Source of the DNA: an uncultured Opitutia bacterium
Lineage (GTDB): Bacteria; Verrucomicrobiota; Verrucomicrobiia; Opitutales; UBA953
Direction: 5' to 3'
Assembly (NCBI GenBank): GCA_903925205.1
Contig: CAIYEN010000279.1
Coordinates: 1-32,236 of the forward strand
Length of the DNA stretch: 32,236 bases
A program made the position numbers and the translations under genes. The first letter of the stretch is position 1; each line of letters begins with the position of its first letter. Under the pieces are notes generated by a model. It was not told the origin of the DNA. It worked only from the letters and a program-made list of their open reading frames with translations, and made no database searches. Shown in pieces: positions 23,215 through 30,674 of this stretch.

Positions 23215-24690
23215 ATGCCCGCAGCACCCTCCGCCTTCCGTTGCCGCGCCTTTCCGCAACGGTCTGCCGGCGTGCTGTTGCACCCGACCGCCCTACCGGG
23301 CCCAGGCCCCATTGGGACGCTCGGCGCGGAAGCCCATCGCTTCATTGAAGCTTTAGCCGCGGGCGGTTTCACCTGGTGGCAAGTCTGCCCGCTCGGGCCC
23401 ACTGGTTACGGCGACTCGCCCTACCAAGCCTTATCCATCTTCGCGGGAAACCCCTACCTCCTTGACCTCCGTGACCTCGAGCGCCGCGGCTTCCTGACGA
23501 AGGCGGAAGTCGCCAGTGTCCAACGCGGAACCGACCACCACACGGATTATGGCCGCCTCTGGCATGAACTCCGCCCCCTGCTCAAGCTGGCCGGCAGCCG
23601 GGCCGCGCAGGCCCTCGCTCCGGCGGCGAACTTCCAGCAATTCCAAATCGGGCATGCCGCTTGGCTTACGGCTTGGTGTCAATTCTCCGCACTCCGCGAG
23701 CAGAATGGTTTCACGGCACCCTCGACTTGGACCACCACAGTGGCCGATGCGACCCTCTGCGCCGAAGCGGCGGCGCTACAGTTCCTCTTCGCCGAACAAT
23801 GGCAGGCCTTACGTGCGCAAGCACAGCGCCACGGCATCCGCCTCATGGGCGATGAACCCATCTATGTCTCGGCGGATGGGTGCGACGTACGGGCCCACCC
23901 GCAACTCTTCCAGCTCGATGCTCTGGGCCGACCCACGGCGGTCGCCGGCGTACCTCCAGACTACTTTGCGGAAGACGGCCAGCTTTGGGGCAATCCGCTC
24001 TACGATTGGACCGCCCATGCGGCCGACGGCTTCGCTTGGTGGCAGGCACGCGTGCACCACGACCTGCAGCTTTTTGATGCCGTCCGCATCGACCACTTTC
24101 GTGGCCTCTGCGACTACTGGAGCGTCCCCGCTGGCGCGCCCAACGCCCGCGGGGGCACTTGGCACGATGGTCCGGGGCTAGCGTTCACAGTGGCCATGGG
24201 CGACTTGCCGCTGGTGGCCGAAGACCTCGGGCTGCTCTCACCGGGCGTGGACCTCCTCCGGAAGGCCTCCGGCCTGCCAGGAATGGCGGTACTGCAGTTT
24301 GGCTTCGGCGGATCGGCCGATAACCCGCATCACCCGGATAACGTCACGGCCGACCGCGTCGTCTATACGGGCACGCACGACAATGATACCCTCCGAGGTT
24401 GGCTCGCGACCGCTTCCCCGGAGGAACAAGCCAACTTGCAGGAGTTCCTCGGGGCCGTGGACGACGTACCCAGCGCCTTGACTGACGCGGTCCTCGCCAC
24501 GCCAGCCATTTGCGCCATCCTACCCATTCAGGACCTCCTAGGCCTAGGCACGACGGCCCGCTTTAATACTCCCGGTAACCCGCAAGGTAACTGGACTTGG
24601 CGCCTGACCGATAGCGAATTCGCGGCGCTCACCCGCACCCTGCCTGCTTGGCGTCCGCGCTTGGCGCAGTGCCAGCGGCTCAACGCGTAA
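23215..24690 (+). CDS. malQ: 4-alpha-glucanotransferase
   Basis: GVLLHPTALPGPGPIGTLG...WWQVCPLGPTGYGDSPYQALSIFAGNPYLLDL...RLMGDEPIYVSADGCDV...VRIDHFRGLCDYW...VYTGTHDNDTLRGW. Confidence 0.95.
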   Translation: MPAAPSAFRCRAFPQRSAGVLLHPTALPGPGPIGTLGAEAHRFIEALAAGGFTWWQVCPLGPTGYGDSPYQALSIFAGNPYLLDLRDLERRGFLTKAEVASVQRGTDHHTDYGRLWHELRPLLKLAGSRAAQALAPAANFQQFQIGHAAWLTAWCQFSALREQNGFTAPSTWTTTVADATLCAEAAALQFLFAEQWQALRAQAQRHGIRLMGDEPIYVSADGCDVRAHPQLFQLDALGRPTAVAGVPPDYFAEDGQLWGNPLYDWTAHAADGFAWWQARVHHDLQLFDAVRIDHFRGLCDYWSVPAGAPNARGGTWHDGPGLAFTVAMGDLPLVAEDLGLLSPGVDLLRKASGLPGMAVLQFGFGGSADNPHHPDNVTADRVVYTGTHDNDTLRGWLATASPEEQANLQEFLGAVDDVPSALTDAVLATPAICAILPIQDLLGLGTTARFNTPGNPQGNWTWRLTDSEFAALTRTLPAWRPRLAQCQRLNA

Positions 24691-26356
24691 GCCGGCGGTA
24701 CTTGGGACGGCGGGGGGTATCGGAGTCCTCGCCTAAGCGACGGCGCCGCGACTCTAGGTAGTCGCCGTAGTTACCTTCGTGCCAAACGAGTTTACCGTCA
24801 TCCTCAAAGGCCAAGATATGCGTCGCCACGCGATCCAAGAACCAGCGATCGTGTGAAATCACCACCGCGCAACCAGCGAAAGACTCTAACGCATCTTCCA
24901 ACGCGCGAATGGTGTTCACATCCAAGTCATTGGTCGGTTCGTCAAGGAGCAGTACGTTGGCGCCGGCCTTAATCAACCGGGCGAGGTGAATGCGATTGCG
25001 TTCACCGCCCGACATCAGCCCGACCTTGCGCTGTTGCACGTCGCCCGTGAAACCAAAGCGAGCCGCGTAAGCGCGGGCGGGGACAATGACCTTACCGAGG
25101 TGCACCATGTCCTGGCCATCTGAGATGGCTTCCCAGAGGGCCTTGTCCGCGGGCAAGGAATCACGCGATTGATCAACGTGCGCAATCTTGACCGTGTCCC
25201 CTAAAGTCAGCGTGCCCTTATCGGGCTTCTCTTGGCCGGTGATCAGGCGAAAGAGGGTCGTCTTACCCGCGCCGTTCGGGCCGATAATACCGACGATACC
25301 GCCCGCCGGCAGCGAGAAGTTGACGTCCTCCATCAGCACGCGGTCGCCATAAGCTTTCATCAAACCCTTGGCCTCAATCACGGCGCCCCCGAGGCGCGGG
25401 CCGGGCGGAATCCAAATCTCCGCCTTACTCTCGGTCTGCGCCTGATCCTGCGTGAGCATCTGCTCATAGGCACGCAAGCGGGCCTTGTTCTTCGCCACGC
25501 GGGCCTTGGGCGAAGAGCCCGCCCATTCGCGCTCGCGTTCCATCGAGCGCGAGCGGGCGATGGACTGCTTTTCTTCCATCTCAATCCGCTTCTGCTTTTG
25601 CTCGAGCCAAGAGGAGTAATTGCCCTTCCAGGGCACCCCGCGACCACGGTCGAGTTCCAGGATCCAGCCCGCCACGTTGTCGAGGAAGTAACGGTCGTGC
25701 GTAATTGCAATGACCGTCCCCTTGTAATTTTGTAGGTGGCGCTCCAACCAGGCCACGGTATCGGCATCGAGGTGATTGGTCGGTTCGTCGAGGAGGAGGA
25801 TGTCTGGCTCCATCAGCAACAAGCGGCATAAGGCCACGCGGCGCTTTTCCCCGCCGGACAAAGAAGCCACCACCGCGTCAGGGGCGGGGCAGCGCAGGGC
25901 TTCAAGGGCCATCTCAATACGCGCGTCTAGGTCCCAGCCGCCCCGGGCGTCGAGGATGGCTTGAATTTCCCCTTGGCGGGCCAGAATCCGCTCCTGCTCC
26001 TTGGCGTCATCGGTTTCCGAGACCTTCACAAAAGTATCATCATACTCCTCCAGCAGCGCCTTCATCTCCGACACGGCTTCCTTGACGCATTCAGCGACCG
26101 TCTTGGTTTCATCAAGGCGCGGCTCTTGGGCGAGGTAGCCCAACGTGTAGCCCGGGACCGCACTGATTTCACCGTCAAACTCCTTGTCCTCACCCGCCAT
26201 GATTTTGAGCAAGGTCGACTTACCCGAACCGTTGAGGCCGAGGACGCCGATCTTAGCGCCAAAGAAGTACGATAGGGAGATATCCCGGAAGACCGGCTTC
26301 TTCTCGAAGTGCTTGGTCACACCCGTCATGGTAAAAATCACCTTTTCGTCAGCCAT
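24680..26356 (-). CDS. ettA: ABC-F ATPase, energy-dependent translational throttle protein EttA
   Basis: IFTMTGVTKHFEKKPVFRDISLSYFFGAKIGVLGLNGSGKSTLLKIMAG; two Walker A, two SGGE(K/R) signatures and LLLDEPTNHLD / LLLDEPTNDLD. Confidence 0.95.
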   Translation of the reverse strand: MADEKVIFTMTGVTKHFEKKPVFRDISLSYFFGAKIGVLGLNGSGKSTLLKIMAGEDKEFDGEISAVPGYTLGYLAQEPRLDETKTVAECVKEAVSEMKALLEEYDDTFVKVSETDDAKEQERILARQGEIQAILDARGGWDLDARIEMALEALRCPAPDAVVASLSGGEKRRVALCRLLLMEPDILLLDEPTNHLDADTVAWLERHLQNYKGTVIAITHDRYFLDNVAGWILELDRGRGVPWKGNYSSWLEQKQKRIEMEEKQSIARSRSMEREREWAGSSPKARVAKNKARLRAYEQMLTQDQAQTESKAEIWIPPGPRLGGAVIEAKGLMKAYGDRVLMEDVNFSLPAGGIVGIIGPNGAGKTTLFRLITGQEKPDKGTLTLGDTVKIAHVDQSRDSLPADKALWEAISDGQDMVHLGKVIVPARAYAARFGFTGDVQQRKVGLMSGGERNRIHLARLIKAGANVLLLDEPTNDLDVNTIRALEDALESFAGCAVVISHDRWFLDRVATHILAFEDDGKLVWHEGNYGDYLESRRRRLGEDSDTPRRPKYRRLTR

Positions 26357-26429: not shown

Positions 26430-26458
26430 TTGACAGGCTCTGCTCCAAGGGGCATATC
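26430..26458 (+). promoter_or_regulatory. Candidate sigma70-type promoter for nusA (TTGACA-N17-CATATC)
   Basis: Perfect -35 at 26430-26435, 17-nt spacer, weak (3/6) -10 at 26453-26458. Confidence 0.4.
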
Positions 26459-26470
26459 CCAAGTCCTAGT

Positions 26471-26512
26471 CACCTTTCCATAAGGTGGGTCCAGTCCGGA
26501 CCCGCCTTTTTT
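26471..26512 (+). terminator. Intrinsic terminator with competing upstream hairpin in the nusA leader (candidate attenuator)
   Basis: Terminator AAGGTGGGTCC (26482-26492)-agtcc-GGACCCGCC(TT) then T6 (26507-26512); alternative hairpin CACCTT (26471-26476)-tccat-AAGGTG (26482-26487). Confidence 0.7.
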
Positions 26513-26547
26513 GTCGCCCATTTTCTCACCACACCACCCGTATACCC

Positions 26548-27804
26548 ATGAGCGTAGACATTAAGCCCTACCTGCAATACCTCGAAAAGGAAAAGAATAT
26601 CCCCAAGGATGAAGCCTGCGCGCTCATCGCCGAAGCCATCAAGTCTTCCGTCGAGAAGTCCGTCCTCGCGGGCCAAAACATCGAGGTCATCGCCGACCCC
26701 GCCACCGGCAAACTCGATGCCTTTGCGGTCTATATCGTCAGCGACTCCCCGTCCGACCCCTTAAAGGAAATCAACCCCGTCGCCGCCACCGCCCTCAAGG
26801 CCGACGCCAAGATCGGCGAAGAAGTCCGCCGCCCGATTGCCGTGTCCGACCTCGGTCGCATCGCGGCCATGAGCACCAAGCAGCTCCTCAACCAGCGCTT
26901 CCGTAAGATCGAGAAGGACCAAGTCTTCAAGGAGTATAAGGATAAGATCGGCGATATCGTCACTGGCACGGTGCGCCGTAACGACCGCGGCAACGTCGTC
27001 GTCGAGCTCGGCTCCGCTGAAGCCGTCCTGACCCGCGCCGAAAGTTGCCAAGGCGAAATCTTCCGCACGGGCGACCGTATCCGCTGCCTCCTCCTCGAAA
27101 TCCGCGAAGACACCCAGCGTGGCCGGGAATTCGTCCTTTCCCGCGCCCACCCGAATTTCGTCCGCCGCCTCCTCGAGCTAGAAGTCGCTGAAATCGCTGA
27201 TAAAACGGTCAAAATCGCGGCAATGGCGCGCGACCCCGGCTACCGCACCAAGATTGCGGTCGACTCCTCCGACCCCAAGGTAGACCCCGTCGGCGCCTGC
27301 GTTGGTGCTCGTGGCGCTCGCGTCCGCAACATCGTGAAGGAACTCAACGGCGAAAAGATCGACATCATCCGCTGGCGCCCCGAGCCCCTGCAGTTGCTTG
27401 AAGAAGCCATCCGCCCGGCCAAGCCTCGCAACGTGCACGTCGACGAGCGTAACCGCCTCATCCACTTCGAAGTCGATGAAGACGACATGCGCATCGCCAT
27501 CGGCTCCAAGGGTCGCAACGCCCGCCTGACGTCCAAGCTCATGGGCTGGCGCCTCGACATCACGAAGTCGACACGCGCTCCCGAAAGCGTGGACGCCCAG
27601 CTCGGCGAAAAGGCCCTGCGCCTCGCCGCTCAATTGCAACTATCGCCTGACCTCATCGCTAAGTTCGTCGGCCTCGGCATCGCCGAACTCGCCGCCTTCA
27701 GCGATGTGACTGCCGAAGACTTGGTTGGAACCTCGATCACCGAGGATGAATTCAACACCGTCCTCGCTGCCGTCGCCAAGGCCAAGACCGCTGGCCAGGC
27801 CTAA
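26548..27804 (+). CDS. nusA: Transcription termination/antitermination protein NusA
   Basis: MSVDIKPYLQYLEKEKNIPKDEACALIAEAIKSS; S1 (KIGDIVTGTVRRNDRGNVVVELG), KH (VDPVGACVGARGARVRNIVKELNGEKIDIIRW); ORF-track start at 26485 lies inside the terminator hairpin. Confidence 0.95.
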   Translation: MSVDIKPYLQYLEKEKNIPKDEACALIAEAIKSSVEKSVLAGQNIEVIADPATGKLDAFAVYIVSDSPSDPLKEINPVAATALKADAKIGEEVRRPIAVSDLGRIAAMSTKQLLNQRFRKIEKDQVFKEYKDKIGDIVTGTVRRNDRGNVVVELGSAEAVLTRAESCQGEIFRTGDRIRCLLLEIREDTQRGREFVLSRAHPNFVRRLLELEVAEIADKTVKIAAMARDPGYRTKIAVDSSDPKVDPVGACVGARGARVRNIVKELNGEKIDIIRWRPEPLQLLEEAIRPAKPRNVHVDERNRLIHFEVDEDDMRIAIGSKGRNARLTSKLMGWRLDITKSTRAPESVDAQLGEKALRLAAQLQLSPDLIAKFVGLGIAELAAFSDVTAEDLVGTSITEDEFNTVLAAVAKAKTAGQA

Positions 27805-27851: not shown

Positions 27852-30299
27852 ATGACCGAGAAGAAGAAGAAACCCGAAGCAAAGAAGGCCTCGACCACCC
27901 AGCGTTACAGCGACGTGGCCAAGGAACTCGGCCTCGAGGTCAAGGCATTGCTCGCCTTGGCGGACCAGTTCGTAGAGGCCCATCCGGACTTCAAGGACCT
28001 CGTCTACGCCGAAGGCAAGAAGCCGGCCGCCTCCAGCAATTTCAGCAAGTTCTACCGCGATGACTTCATGAAGTTTGCGGCGGACAAGTTGCCCAAAAAG
28101 GAAGAGCCCGCCCCCGTGGTCGCTCCGGTGGTCGCTCCCGTGGCCGCCCCCATTAAGCCCGTGATCGAAGCCGCTAAGCCCACCGCACCGGCAGCTCCGA
28201 CTGCTCCGGCCGCCGCTAAGCCTAACGTCCCGCCAGCCGTCCTGCCTCCGCGCCCCGCCCCCTTAGCTCCGCCGCGGCCGACCGCGGGCCCCGCTCCGGT
28301 CGTCCCGCCGCGTCCCGTCGCCCCGCCGACGACTCCGCGCAACGAACTGCCTCCCATTGTCATCACGCCTTCGCAGCCCCCAGCTGCGCCGAGCCGCCCC
28401 AGCCCCCTCCCTCCGATCGTCCGCCCGCCGGCTGCACCGGTGGTCACGCGTACCGTAGGTGGTGCCGGGCAAGTCGCCCCAGGCAGTAAGGGTGCCGTCA
28501 CGGTCCGTCCGCCCATCGTGGTGCGCGACTTCGCCATCGCCCTCAACCTCAAGCCCTTCCAAGTCATCGGCAGCCTGATGGAGTTAAACAAGGTCGTCAG
28601 CGTCGCTTCAGTCATTGAAGAAGCCGACGCACGGAAGGTCGCCGAGAAGCATGGCTACGTCCTCGAGATTCGCCACCGCGGCGAAGGCGCTCAGCCCGTC
28701 AAGAAGGTCGAAAAGAACACCGACGACGATCCCGCCCTGCTTGCGGTCCGTCCGCCGGTCGTCTGCGTGCTCGGCCACGTCGACCACGGCAAGACCACGC
28801 TCCTCGACTACTTCCGCAAGACCAACGTGGTGTCCGGCGAAGCCGGCGGCATCACCCAGCACATCGGTGCTTACTCCGTCAAGTACCAGGGCGAGAAGCC
28901 CGAGTACAAGGGGCGCACCGTCACCTTCCTCGACACGCCAGGTCACGCCGCCTTCGCCAAGATGCGCGAACGTGGCGCCTCCGTTACGGATATCGCCGTC
29001 CTCGTGGTGGCGGCCGACGACGGCTTCATGCCGCAGACCGAAGAAGCCCTCAAGTTCGCCCAGAAGCATGCCAGCGCCATCGTTTGCGCCGTGAACAAGG
29101 TGGACGCCAAGGGCGCCAACATTGATCGCGTGAAGCAGCAGATGCAGCAGCGCGGCATCACCCCGGAAGACTGGGGTGGCGAAACCATTACCAACGCTGT
29201 CTCCGCGCTCAAGGGCACGGGCATGAACGAGCTCCTCGAGTCGATCCTCCTGCAGGCCGAAATCCTCGACCTCAAGGCGAACCCCAAGTGCGCCGCCCAA
29301 GGCGTCGTCATCGAATCCCAGATGGAGACCGGCCGTGGCCCAACCGCGACCGTCATCGTCCAGAAGGGCACCCTCAAAGCTGGTGACTCCTTCGTCTGCG
29401 GCGAAACGTGGTGTAAGGTCCGCGCGCTCATGGATGAACGCGGTGGCCGCATCCAGAATTCCGCTCCAGGCACCCCGGCCCTCGTGCTCGGCTGGGACGC
29501 CGTCCCGGCTCCAGGCACGAAGTTCCAGACCTTAAAGAACGACCGCGAAGCCCGCGAACTGGCCGAAGAAGCCGCCCTCGCTGGCCGCAAGGCCGCCGAA
29601 GCCCAACAGCAGGCGCCGAACACCGGCGCTCGCCCTGGCATGACGGACCTCGAACGCCTCATGGCCGCCCTCGCACAGGATAAGGAGAAGATTCTCCGCG
29701 TCCTGCTTAAGGCTGACGTCAACGGCACGCTCGAAGCCCTCGAAGGTTGCCTCCGCGAAATCAAGTCCACCAAGGTCCGCCTCGACATCGTCGGCGGCTC
29801 CGTCGGCCCGATTACGCAGAGTGACGTCCAGTTGGCCGAAGCGGCCCGCTCCATCATCGTCGGTTTCGACACCAAGATTGAGAACGGCGTCCAAGCCCAC
29901 CTCAAGCGCACGGGTGTCCGCATCGTGACGCATGACATCATCTACGAACTCATCACCTTGGTGAAGGAAGCCATGTCGGAGCTCCTCGACCCCGAAGTGC
30001 GCGAGAACAAACTCGGTGGCGCCGAGGTCCGTGCGGTCTTCCCGCTGGGCAAGGAACACAAGGTGGCTGGTTGTATGGTCACCGAAGGCCTCGTCCGTCG
30101 CCAAGCCAAGGCTCGGCTCGTCCGCAAGGGCCAGATTATCCACCAGGGCCCCGTCGAGACGCTCCGGCGCTTCAAGGACGATGCTTCCGAGGTCAAGGCC
30201 GGCTTCGAGTGCGGTATCAAACTGGGTGGCTACGATGAGTACCTGCCAGGCGACATCATCGAAGTGGTCGAGATGCTCCAGGTCCGCCCCAGCCTCTAA
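27852..30299 (+). CDS. infB: Translation initiation factor IF-2
   Basis: VVCVLGHVDHGKTTLLDYFRKTNVVSGEAGGITQHIGAY; TFLDTPGHAAFAKMRERGA; P/A-rich N-terminal linker. Confidence 0.97.
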   Translation: MTEKKKKPEAKKASTTQRYSDVAKELGLEVKALLALADQFVEAHPDFKDLVYAEGKKPAASSNFSKFYRDDFMKFAADKLPKKEEPAPVVAPVVAPVAAPIKPVIEAAKPTAPAAPTAPAAAKPNVPPAVLPPRPAPLAPPRPTAGPAPVVPPRPVAPPTTPRNELPPIVITPSQPPAAPSRPSPLPPIVRPPAAPVVTRTVGGAGQVAPGSKGAVTVRPPIVVRDFAIALNLKPFQVIGSLMELNKVVSVASVIEEADARKVAEKHGYVLEIRHRGEGAQPVKKVEKNTDDDPALLAVRPPVVCVLGHVDHGKTTLLDYFRKTNVVSGEAGGITQHIGAYSVKYQGEKPEYKGRTVTFLDTPGHAAFAKMRERGASVTDIAVLVVAADDGFMPQTEEALKFAQKHASAIVCAVNKVDAKGANIDRVKQQMQQRGITPEDWGGETITNAVSALKGTGMNELLESILLQAEILDLKANPKCAAQGVVIESQMETGRGPTATVIVQKGTLKAGDSFVCGETWCKVRALMDERGGRIQNSAPGTPALVLGWDAVPAPGTKFQTLKNDREARELAEEAALAGRKAAEAQQQAPNTGARPGMTDLERLMAALAQDKEKILRVLLKADVNGTLEALEGCLREIKSTKVRLDIVGGSVGPITQSDVQLAEAARSIIVGFDTKIENGVQAHLKRTGVRIVTHDIIYELITLVKEAMSELLDPEVRENKLGGAEVRAVFPLGKEHKVAGCMVTEGLVRRQAKARLVRKGQIIHQGPVETLRRFKDDASEVKAGFECGIKLGGYDEYLPGDIIEVVEMLQVRPSL

Positions 30300-30302
30300 G
30301 TC

Positions 30303-30674
30303 ATGTCGCAGCGCCAGCTCCGGGTAGCCGAATTGATCCAGCGCGAAGTGTCCGTCGCGCTCCGGCGCAATTGGATTACCGAATCGGCGTTGATCACGAT
30401 TACCCGCGCGACCGTTTCGCCCGACCTCCGCCAAGTGCGGGTGGGCTACGCGGTCTCGGGCGGTGACCCTGAAAAGAAGGCGGCGCGTATTTTCTTGAAG
30501 CGTATCCGGCGCGAACTGCGTGCCGCGGTCAGTGGCATCTTACAGATGAAGAATGCCCCTGAGCTCATCCTCGCGGAGGATGACGTCACGGGCGGCGTCG
30601 CGCGCGTCCAGGCCCTGCTCGACGAGATGTCACGCAAGGATAAGCCGGCCACGCCCGCGGATGCCGACGAGTAA
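30303..30674 (+). CDS. rbfA: Ribosome-binding factor A
   Basis: RQLRVAELIQREVSVALRRNW...ITITRATVSPDLRQVRVGYAV...LRAAVSGILQMKNAPELIL; directly after infB. Confidence 0.9.
   Translation: MSQRQLRVAELIQREVSVALRRNWITESALITITRATVSPDLRQVRVGYAVSGGDPEKKAARIFLKRIRRELRAAVSGILQMKNAPELILAEDDVTGGVARVQALLDEMSRKDKPATPADADE

Follow-up and report, generated by a model that had tools for sequence, protein, structure and literature searches.

A compact two-hairpin leader as a probable transcription attenuator of the nusA operon in Opitutales

Introduction

Autoregulation of nusA is known in Escherichia coli, whose rimP leader carries GGGCTTTAGGCCC followed by T7. In Bacillus subtilis, NusA controls its own expression by stimulating termination in the leader, according to Mondal et al. 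(2016), cited in PMC12288461. The rimP-leader in its general form has a premature terminator 4-130 nt before the first gene, with a GGGc(...)gCCC stem and a T-stretch (PMC2965389), and shows no visible antiterminator according to Naville and Gautheret (2010; PMC2965389), whose main text does not mention Verrucomicrobiota. Here we describe a nusA leader from this phylum. Leader control of the nusA operon is itself already known in other bacteria; the layout of this leader is new, and it would extend leader termination control of the operon to Verrucomicrobiota.

Results

The locus and its terminator

The window is the whole stretch of DNA analysed (32,236 nt), which lies in a 2.47-Mb draft genome from a lake-dwelling Opitutales lineage. 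The relevant features are as follows.

24680-26356, reverse strand: ettA, divergent from nusA (open reading frames and profile matches)
26430-26458, forward strand: putative nusA operon promoter (TTGACA 26430-26435, N17, weak -10 CATATC 26453-26458)
26468-26470, forward strand: conserved AGT, likely transcription start (invariant in the genus alignment)
26471-26487, forward strand: hairpin 1, the candidate competing hairpin or antiterminator (CACCTT 26471-26476, loop TCCAT, AAGGTG 26482-26487; exact CACCTT in the genus, co-variation, prefix folding)
26482-26487, forward strand: shared strand, the basal 5′ arm of the terminator and the 3′ arm of hairpin 1 (bases change jointly across genera)
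26482-26512, forward strand: predicted intrinsic terminator with an 11-bp stem, 5-nt loop, and T6 (folding; order-wide search)
26548-27804, forward strand: nusA, first gene of the operon, 418 aa (TIGR01953 NusA, 334.7 bits)
27852-30299, forward strand: infB, encoding IF-2 (TIGR00487, 648.6 bits)
30303-30674, forward strand: rbfA-like gene (NF001802, E = 2.3e-14, under the curated cut-off of that profile)

The terminator is formed by a 5′ arm, AAGGTGGGTCC (26482-26492), the loop AGTCC (26493-26497), and a 3′ arm, GGACCCGCCTT (26498-26508), with T6 at 26507-26512, the first two T of which make the last two stem pairs. The initial annotation had placed an 11-bp stem and T6 here, oriented with nusA and ending 35 nt before its ATG at 26548, and every coordinate matched. 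It had also noted that no co-directional gene lies upstream, which is correct: ettA is divergent and malQ ends at 24690, about 1.8 kb from the terminator, so a terminator serving an upstream gene was ruled out.

The hairpin at 26482-26508 is strong (-20 kcal/mol) and is followed directly by T6. The leader as a whole folds at -23.7 kcal/mol, better than its shuffles (z = -3.1); for the 45-nt RNA that runs from the conserved AGT through the end of T6, the value is -20.5 kcal/mol (z = -5.7). When both strands of the window were scanned, this hairpin was the top terminator-like site; its rank and the shuffle z-scores rule out a chance hairpin. A repeated element was also rejected, as the organism's own genome holds one strong copy and one match to the covariance model of the genus. 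Our Rfam search of the window returned no match at the gathering score; the best sub-threshold match, L20_leader (21.9 bits against a cut-off of 58.7), was taken as chance.

Promoter and presumed transcript start

The promoter TTGACA-N17-CATATC had been proposed before, and its coordinates stand, with TTGACA invariant in our alignment of 43 distinct leaders of the genus. The -10 element fared less well, since CATATC shares only 3 of its 6 bases with TATAAT and a strict promoter scan does not accept it. Conservation averages just 57% between TTGACA and AGT, a stretch made up of the spacer and -10 region. Across the order, TTGAC lies 25-75 nt (mostly 48-65 nt) 5′ of the stem in all 62 leaders that have a terminator. 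From the spacing of the -35 and -10 elements we infer a start at the conserved AGT, with RNA polymerase likely to begin near A26468.

Two further short elements were seen. An invariant GTC (26513-26515, forward strand) directly follows the T-run in 43 of 43 distinct genus leaders; it lies outside both hairpins and has no evident role. Near the presumed transcript start, TTCAC(A/T)TTT occurs in leaders L091, L093, and L106-L108, also where hairpin 1 uses another arm; because it is kept even there, the motif may have a role of its own. T/G/C-TCAC is present in 28 of the 62 leaders, compared with 13.5 in shuffles.

A competing hairpin at the start of the leader

The complementarity noted earlier between CACCTT (26471-26476) and the base of the terminator 5′ arm was confirmed. 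In prefix folding, hairpin 1 is seen from +20 and is the preferred nascent fold up to +38, by then together with the upper terminator stem (-15.8 kcal/mol); the full terminator takes over from +39 (-17.7 to -20.5 kcal/mol). Folding, which had been suggested as a check, thus yielded both alternative structures and placed the switch between them at +39. The description of the two hairpins as mutually exclusive is right only for the basal strand that they share; hairpin 1 and the upper part of the terminator stem can form side by side.

Conservation within the genus

We detected nusA in 52 of 55 genomes of the genus, and in 48 (the organism's own genome included) the contig extends far enough 5′ of nusA for the leader to be evaluated. 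The element was present in all 48, each with an exact CACCTT, so it survived a comparison in which loss of both hairpins among close relatives would have spoken against it. The shared pattern reads TTGACA, a variable stretch, AGT(T)CACCTT, 4-6 nt, (A/G)AGGTGGG(T/C)CC, the loop, GG(A/G)CCCGC(C/T)TTTTTT, and GTC, with minor departures in two members (L010 and L045). Most of the genomes compared are MAGs, and odd single bases, for example in L010, may therefore be errors. Conservation reaches 96-100% in the shared 5′ arm, in the 3′ arm and its T-run, and in GTC (by part, S strand 96% and T arm 97%). As the sequence hardly varies, co-variation within the genus is uninformative. In one member of the genus (G006:C2:258427-259574), a nusA at a contig end is broken by several stops and frame changes into pieces of 42-76% identity, representing either a decayed gene or assembly errors.

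Distribution across the order and phylum

Beyond the genus, direct reading of nusA leaders across the order revealed the layout described above. We also used a uniform search (terminator at or below -8 kcal/mol and at most 140 nt from the start, one representative per genus, dinucleotide shuffles as controls). A nusA-leader terminator was found in 61 of the 72 order genera sampled (4-8 in the shuffles); among phylum genomes outside the order, 33 of 40 had one (2-5 in the shuffles). Most members of the order have a GGG...CCC stem with GYGGG/CCCRC. The covariance model built from the genus matched leaders of the sister genus g5 and of five genera in another family (E from 5e-5 to 1e-7). It found none in genera g2-g4 of the same family; read directly, the nusA leaders of these genera are mostly diverged forms of the same layout.

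Seven of the 10 order genera with no nusA-leader terminator (L201, L205, L206, L207, L211, L213, and L223) have small genomes (0.8-1.3 Mb), a pattern that would fit loss of the attenuator in the course of genome reduction. Small-genome members of the organism's own genus retain it. The order seems to lack the 30S maturation factor RimP: RimP_N (PF02576) had no match in 18 of 18 order genomes, while 10 of 14 control genomes matched.

Co-variation of hairpin 1 with the terminator

We evaluated hairpin 1 by taking the best simple hairpin between the 26 nt upstream and the first 7 nt of the terminator stem in 62 order leaders. True partners paired at a mean of -2.76 kcal/mol, compared with -1.58 kcal/mol for partners swapped between genera (z = -5.8, a value not equalled in any of 200,000 permutations). 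With the upstream sequence shuffled, the mean was -1.38 kcal/mol. Because relatedness can inflate such tests, we repeated the swaps on reduced sets. The signal was kept when the organism's own genus was cut to one leader (z = -4.9), when this genus and its sister were excluded (z = -4.2), and with one leader per family (median p = 0.002). With swaps confined to within families it was z = -1.6 (p = 0.058), and outside the order the test was weak (z = -1.8, p = 0.04). An earlier statistic, based on how many pairs are expected with the initial 10 nt of the stem and insensitive because the leader is rich in C and U, still gave z = 4.0 in the swap test.

Triples of upstream, shared, and downstream bases change jointly across genera, appearing as U-A-U, A-U-A, or C-G-C four bases before GGG and as A-U-G or G-C-G one base before it. 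Under the rule used, 13 of the 62 leaders have no simple hairpin 1, and together with the within-family swaps this indicates that the structure is not universal. From the comparison of leaders we conclude that hairpin 1 exists across much of the order but is missing from some genera. Co-variation across related nusA leaders had been named as a check on the proposal, and in the order both alternative hairpins co-vary. The attenuator or antiterminator layout that had been put forward is strongly supported by its conservation in the genus, its order-wide occurrence, and this co-variation.

Translation-based control

The initial annotation had also allowed for control by IF2 or the state of the ribosome, for which we found no evidence. 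Within the genus, the leader has no kept reading frame and nusA lacks an SD-like core, which makes translation-based control unlikely. A leader peptide was rejected because the frame of the shared-strand GTG relative to nusA varies among members of the genus, with all three frames represented, and an in-frame GTG extension of NusA (ORF from 26485) was rejected because indels in the terminator loop and leader of relatives shift the frame. The sequence AGTCACCTTTC (26468-26487) resembles the 16S anti-Shine-Dalgarno end, and AAGGTGG, which includes the shared strand, resembles an SD. Ribosome sensing through the SD-like AAGGUGG was ruled out, as the resemblance is lost in other genera.

Discussion

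The comparative data establish a conserved predicted terminator together with a conserved, co-varying competing hairpin: two hairpins that exclude each other over one shared strand, as expected of a terminator/antiterminator pair. Since both hairpins are backed by these data, we interpret the element as an attenuator of nusA-infB-rbfA and not a stray terminator. The reading that we lean towards is a compact transcription attenuator of this operon, with NusA most likely pushing towards termination.

On this reading, hairpin 1 (26471-26487) would fold first and the upper terminator stem, GGGUCC/GGACCC, next. As the 3′ arm GCC-UU emerges, AAGGUG would quit hairpin 1 to finish the terminator stem beside the U-tract. 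Completion of the stem would leave an RNA of about 45 nt and no nusA mRNA, and failure to complete it would permit read-through. NusA would slow polymerase and help hairpins in the exit channel to complete, favouring termination and limiting its own operon. Actual termination, read-through, and the role of NusA as regulator are parts of this scheme that we infer.

Several reports bear on these steps. NusA reportedly aids both pause hairpins and terminator hairpins and promotes pausing (PMC12288461), and the last basal pairs to close are reported to set the rate at which a terminator hairpin forms (PMC8060035). Because hairpin 1 holds the basal 5′ arm, and with it the rate-limiting pairs, slowing polymerase or aiding hairpins should lead to more termination. 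Terminators in B. subtilis that depend on NusA or NusG often show weak pairing at the base of the stem or breaks in the U-tract (PMC8060035); since the terminator here is strong and its U-tract uninterrupted, any dependence on NusA would have to come from hairpin 1. Feedback by NusA on its own operon is the likeliest form of control, by analogy with B. subtilis and E. coli and from the role of NusA in hairpin completion, and this order-wide switch in the nusA leader probably lets NusA limit its own production. Leader control would be kept even where RimP seems to be lacking; this suggests that what is sensed is NusA or the behaviour of polymerase, and not RimP. A narrower proposal, which we put forward tentatively and hold to be possible though doubtful, is that the leader is a minimal NusA sensor of about 45 nt throughout this order, where we found no RimP. 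In such a sensor hairpin 1, through an enforced exchange of strands at the rate-limiting basal pairs, would render a strong terminator NusA-dependent, and the competition between hairpins would read the NusA level directly. So small and mutable a switch would be a testbed for how NusA autoregulation reads that level.

The same two hairpins could answer to another controller, such as polymerase speed, NusG, NTP supply, or temperature, or to some RNA-binding protein with either the conserved stem (GUGGG...CCCRC) or AGUCACC at the 5′ end as its target. The primary sequence of the stem is highly conserved (96% in the S strand and 97% in the T arm), which suggests recognition beyond pairing, an argument that Naville and Gautheret made likewise for the rimP-leader (PMC2965389), and NusG is reported to stimulate terminators with weak basal pairs (PMC8060035). 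We nevertheless consider another controller unlikely, as both the gene content of the operon and the precedents from other bacteria indicate NusA and the sequence suggests no other factor. It is more improbable still that the element is a constitutive partial terminator, setting a fixed low level of the nusA operon with hairpin 1 merely tuning its efficiency. The strength of the terminator, with neither a ligand-binding domain nor a leader peptide, would fit such an unregulated device, but a weaker promoter would suffice for that purpose, and the order-wide retention of two exclusive hairpins suggests a switch. That the terminated RNA of about 45 nt is the main product, acting in trans as a small RNA through a free 5′ end, CACCUUUC, that resembles an anti-Shine-Dalgarno sequence, is very improbable: its 5′ AGU(U)CACCUU is invariant in the genus and single-stranded in the terminator fold, but in other genera the 5′ arm changes with the shared strand, as for a cis hairpin and not a fixed seed, and the SD-like character is absent outside the genus.

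Attenuation with NusA feedback, our preferred reading, can be set against the known leaders. Like the general rimP-leader, the element is a terminator in the leader of a nusA-infB operon, here 35 nt before the ATG, with a G-rich 5′ arm, a C-rich 3′ arm, and a U-stretch. It differs in directly preceding nusA and not rimP, in having a conserved, co-varying competing hairpin, and in its stem, which in the organism's own genus is GGGu(...)aCCC and not GGGc(...)gCCC, although many other genera of the order have GGGC/GCCC. The gammaproteobacterial leader of Rfam RF01770 occupies the same operon position and is likewise an attenuator with an antiterminator, with two terminators there and one here. 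None of 145 phylum genomes, the organism's own included, matches RF01770 at its gathering score of 47 bits, whereas the E. coli control does. We therefore regard the element as working like a rimP-leader and do not file it as a member, given that neither a match to RF01770 nor RimP was found, and given the c/g deviation and the competing hairpin.

As in classical attenuators such as the B. subtilis trp leader, a shared strand pairs with either an upstream or a downstream arm; unlike them, this leader has no leader peptide or known effector-binding region, and hairpin 1 opens the presumed transcript. The resemblance to the B. subtilis ylxS-nusA leader lies in an intrinsic terminator of the nusA operon and in the negative feedback by NusA that we propose. 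The B. subtilis leader is 180 nt long (PMC2965389), whereas the leader described here would span only about 80 nt and presumably open with its first hairpin.
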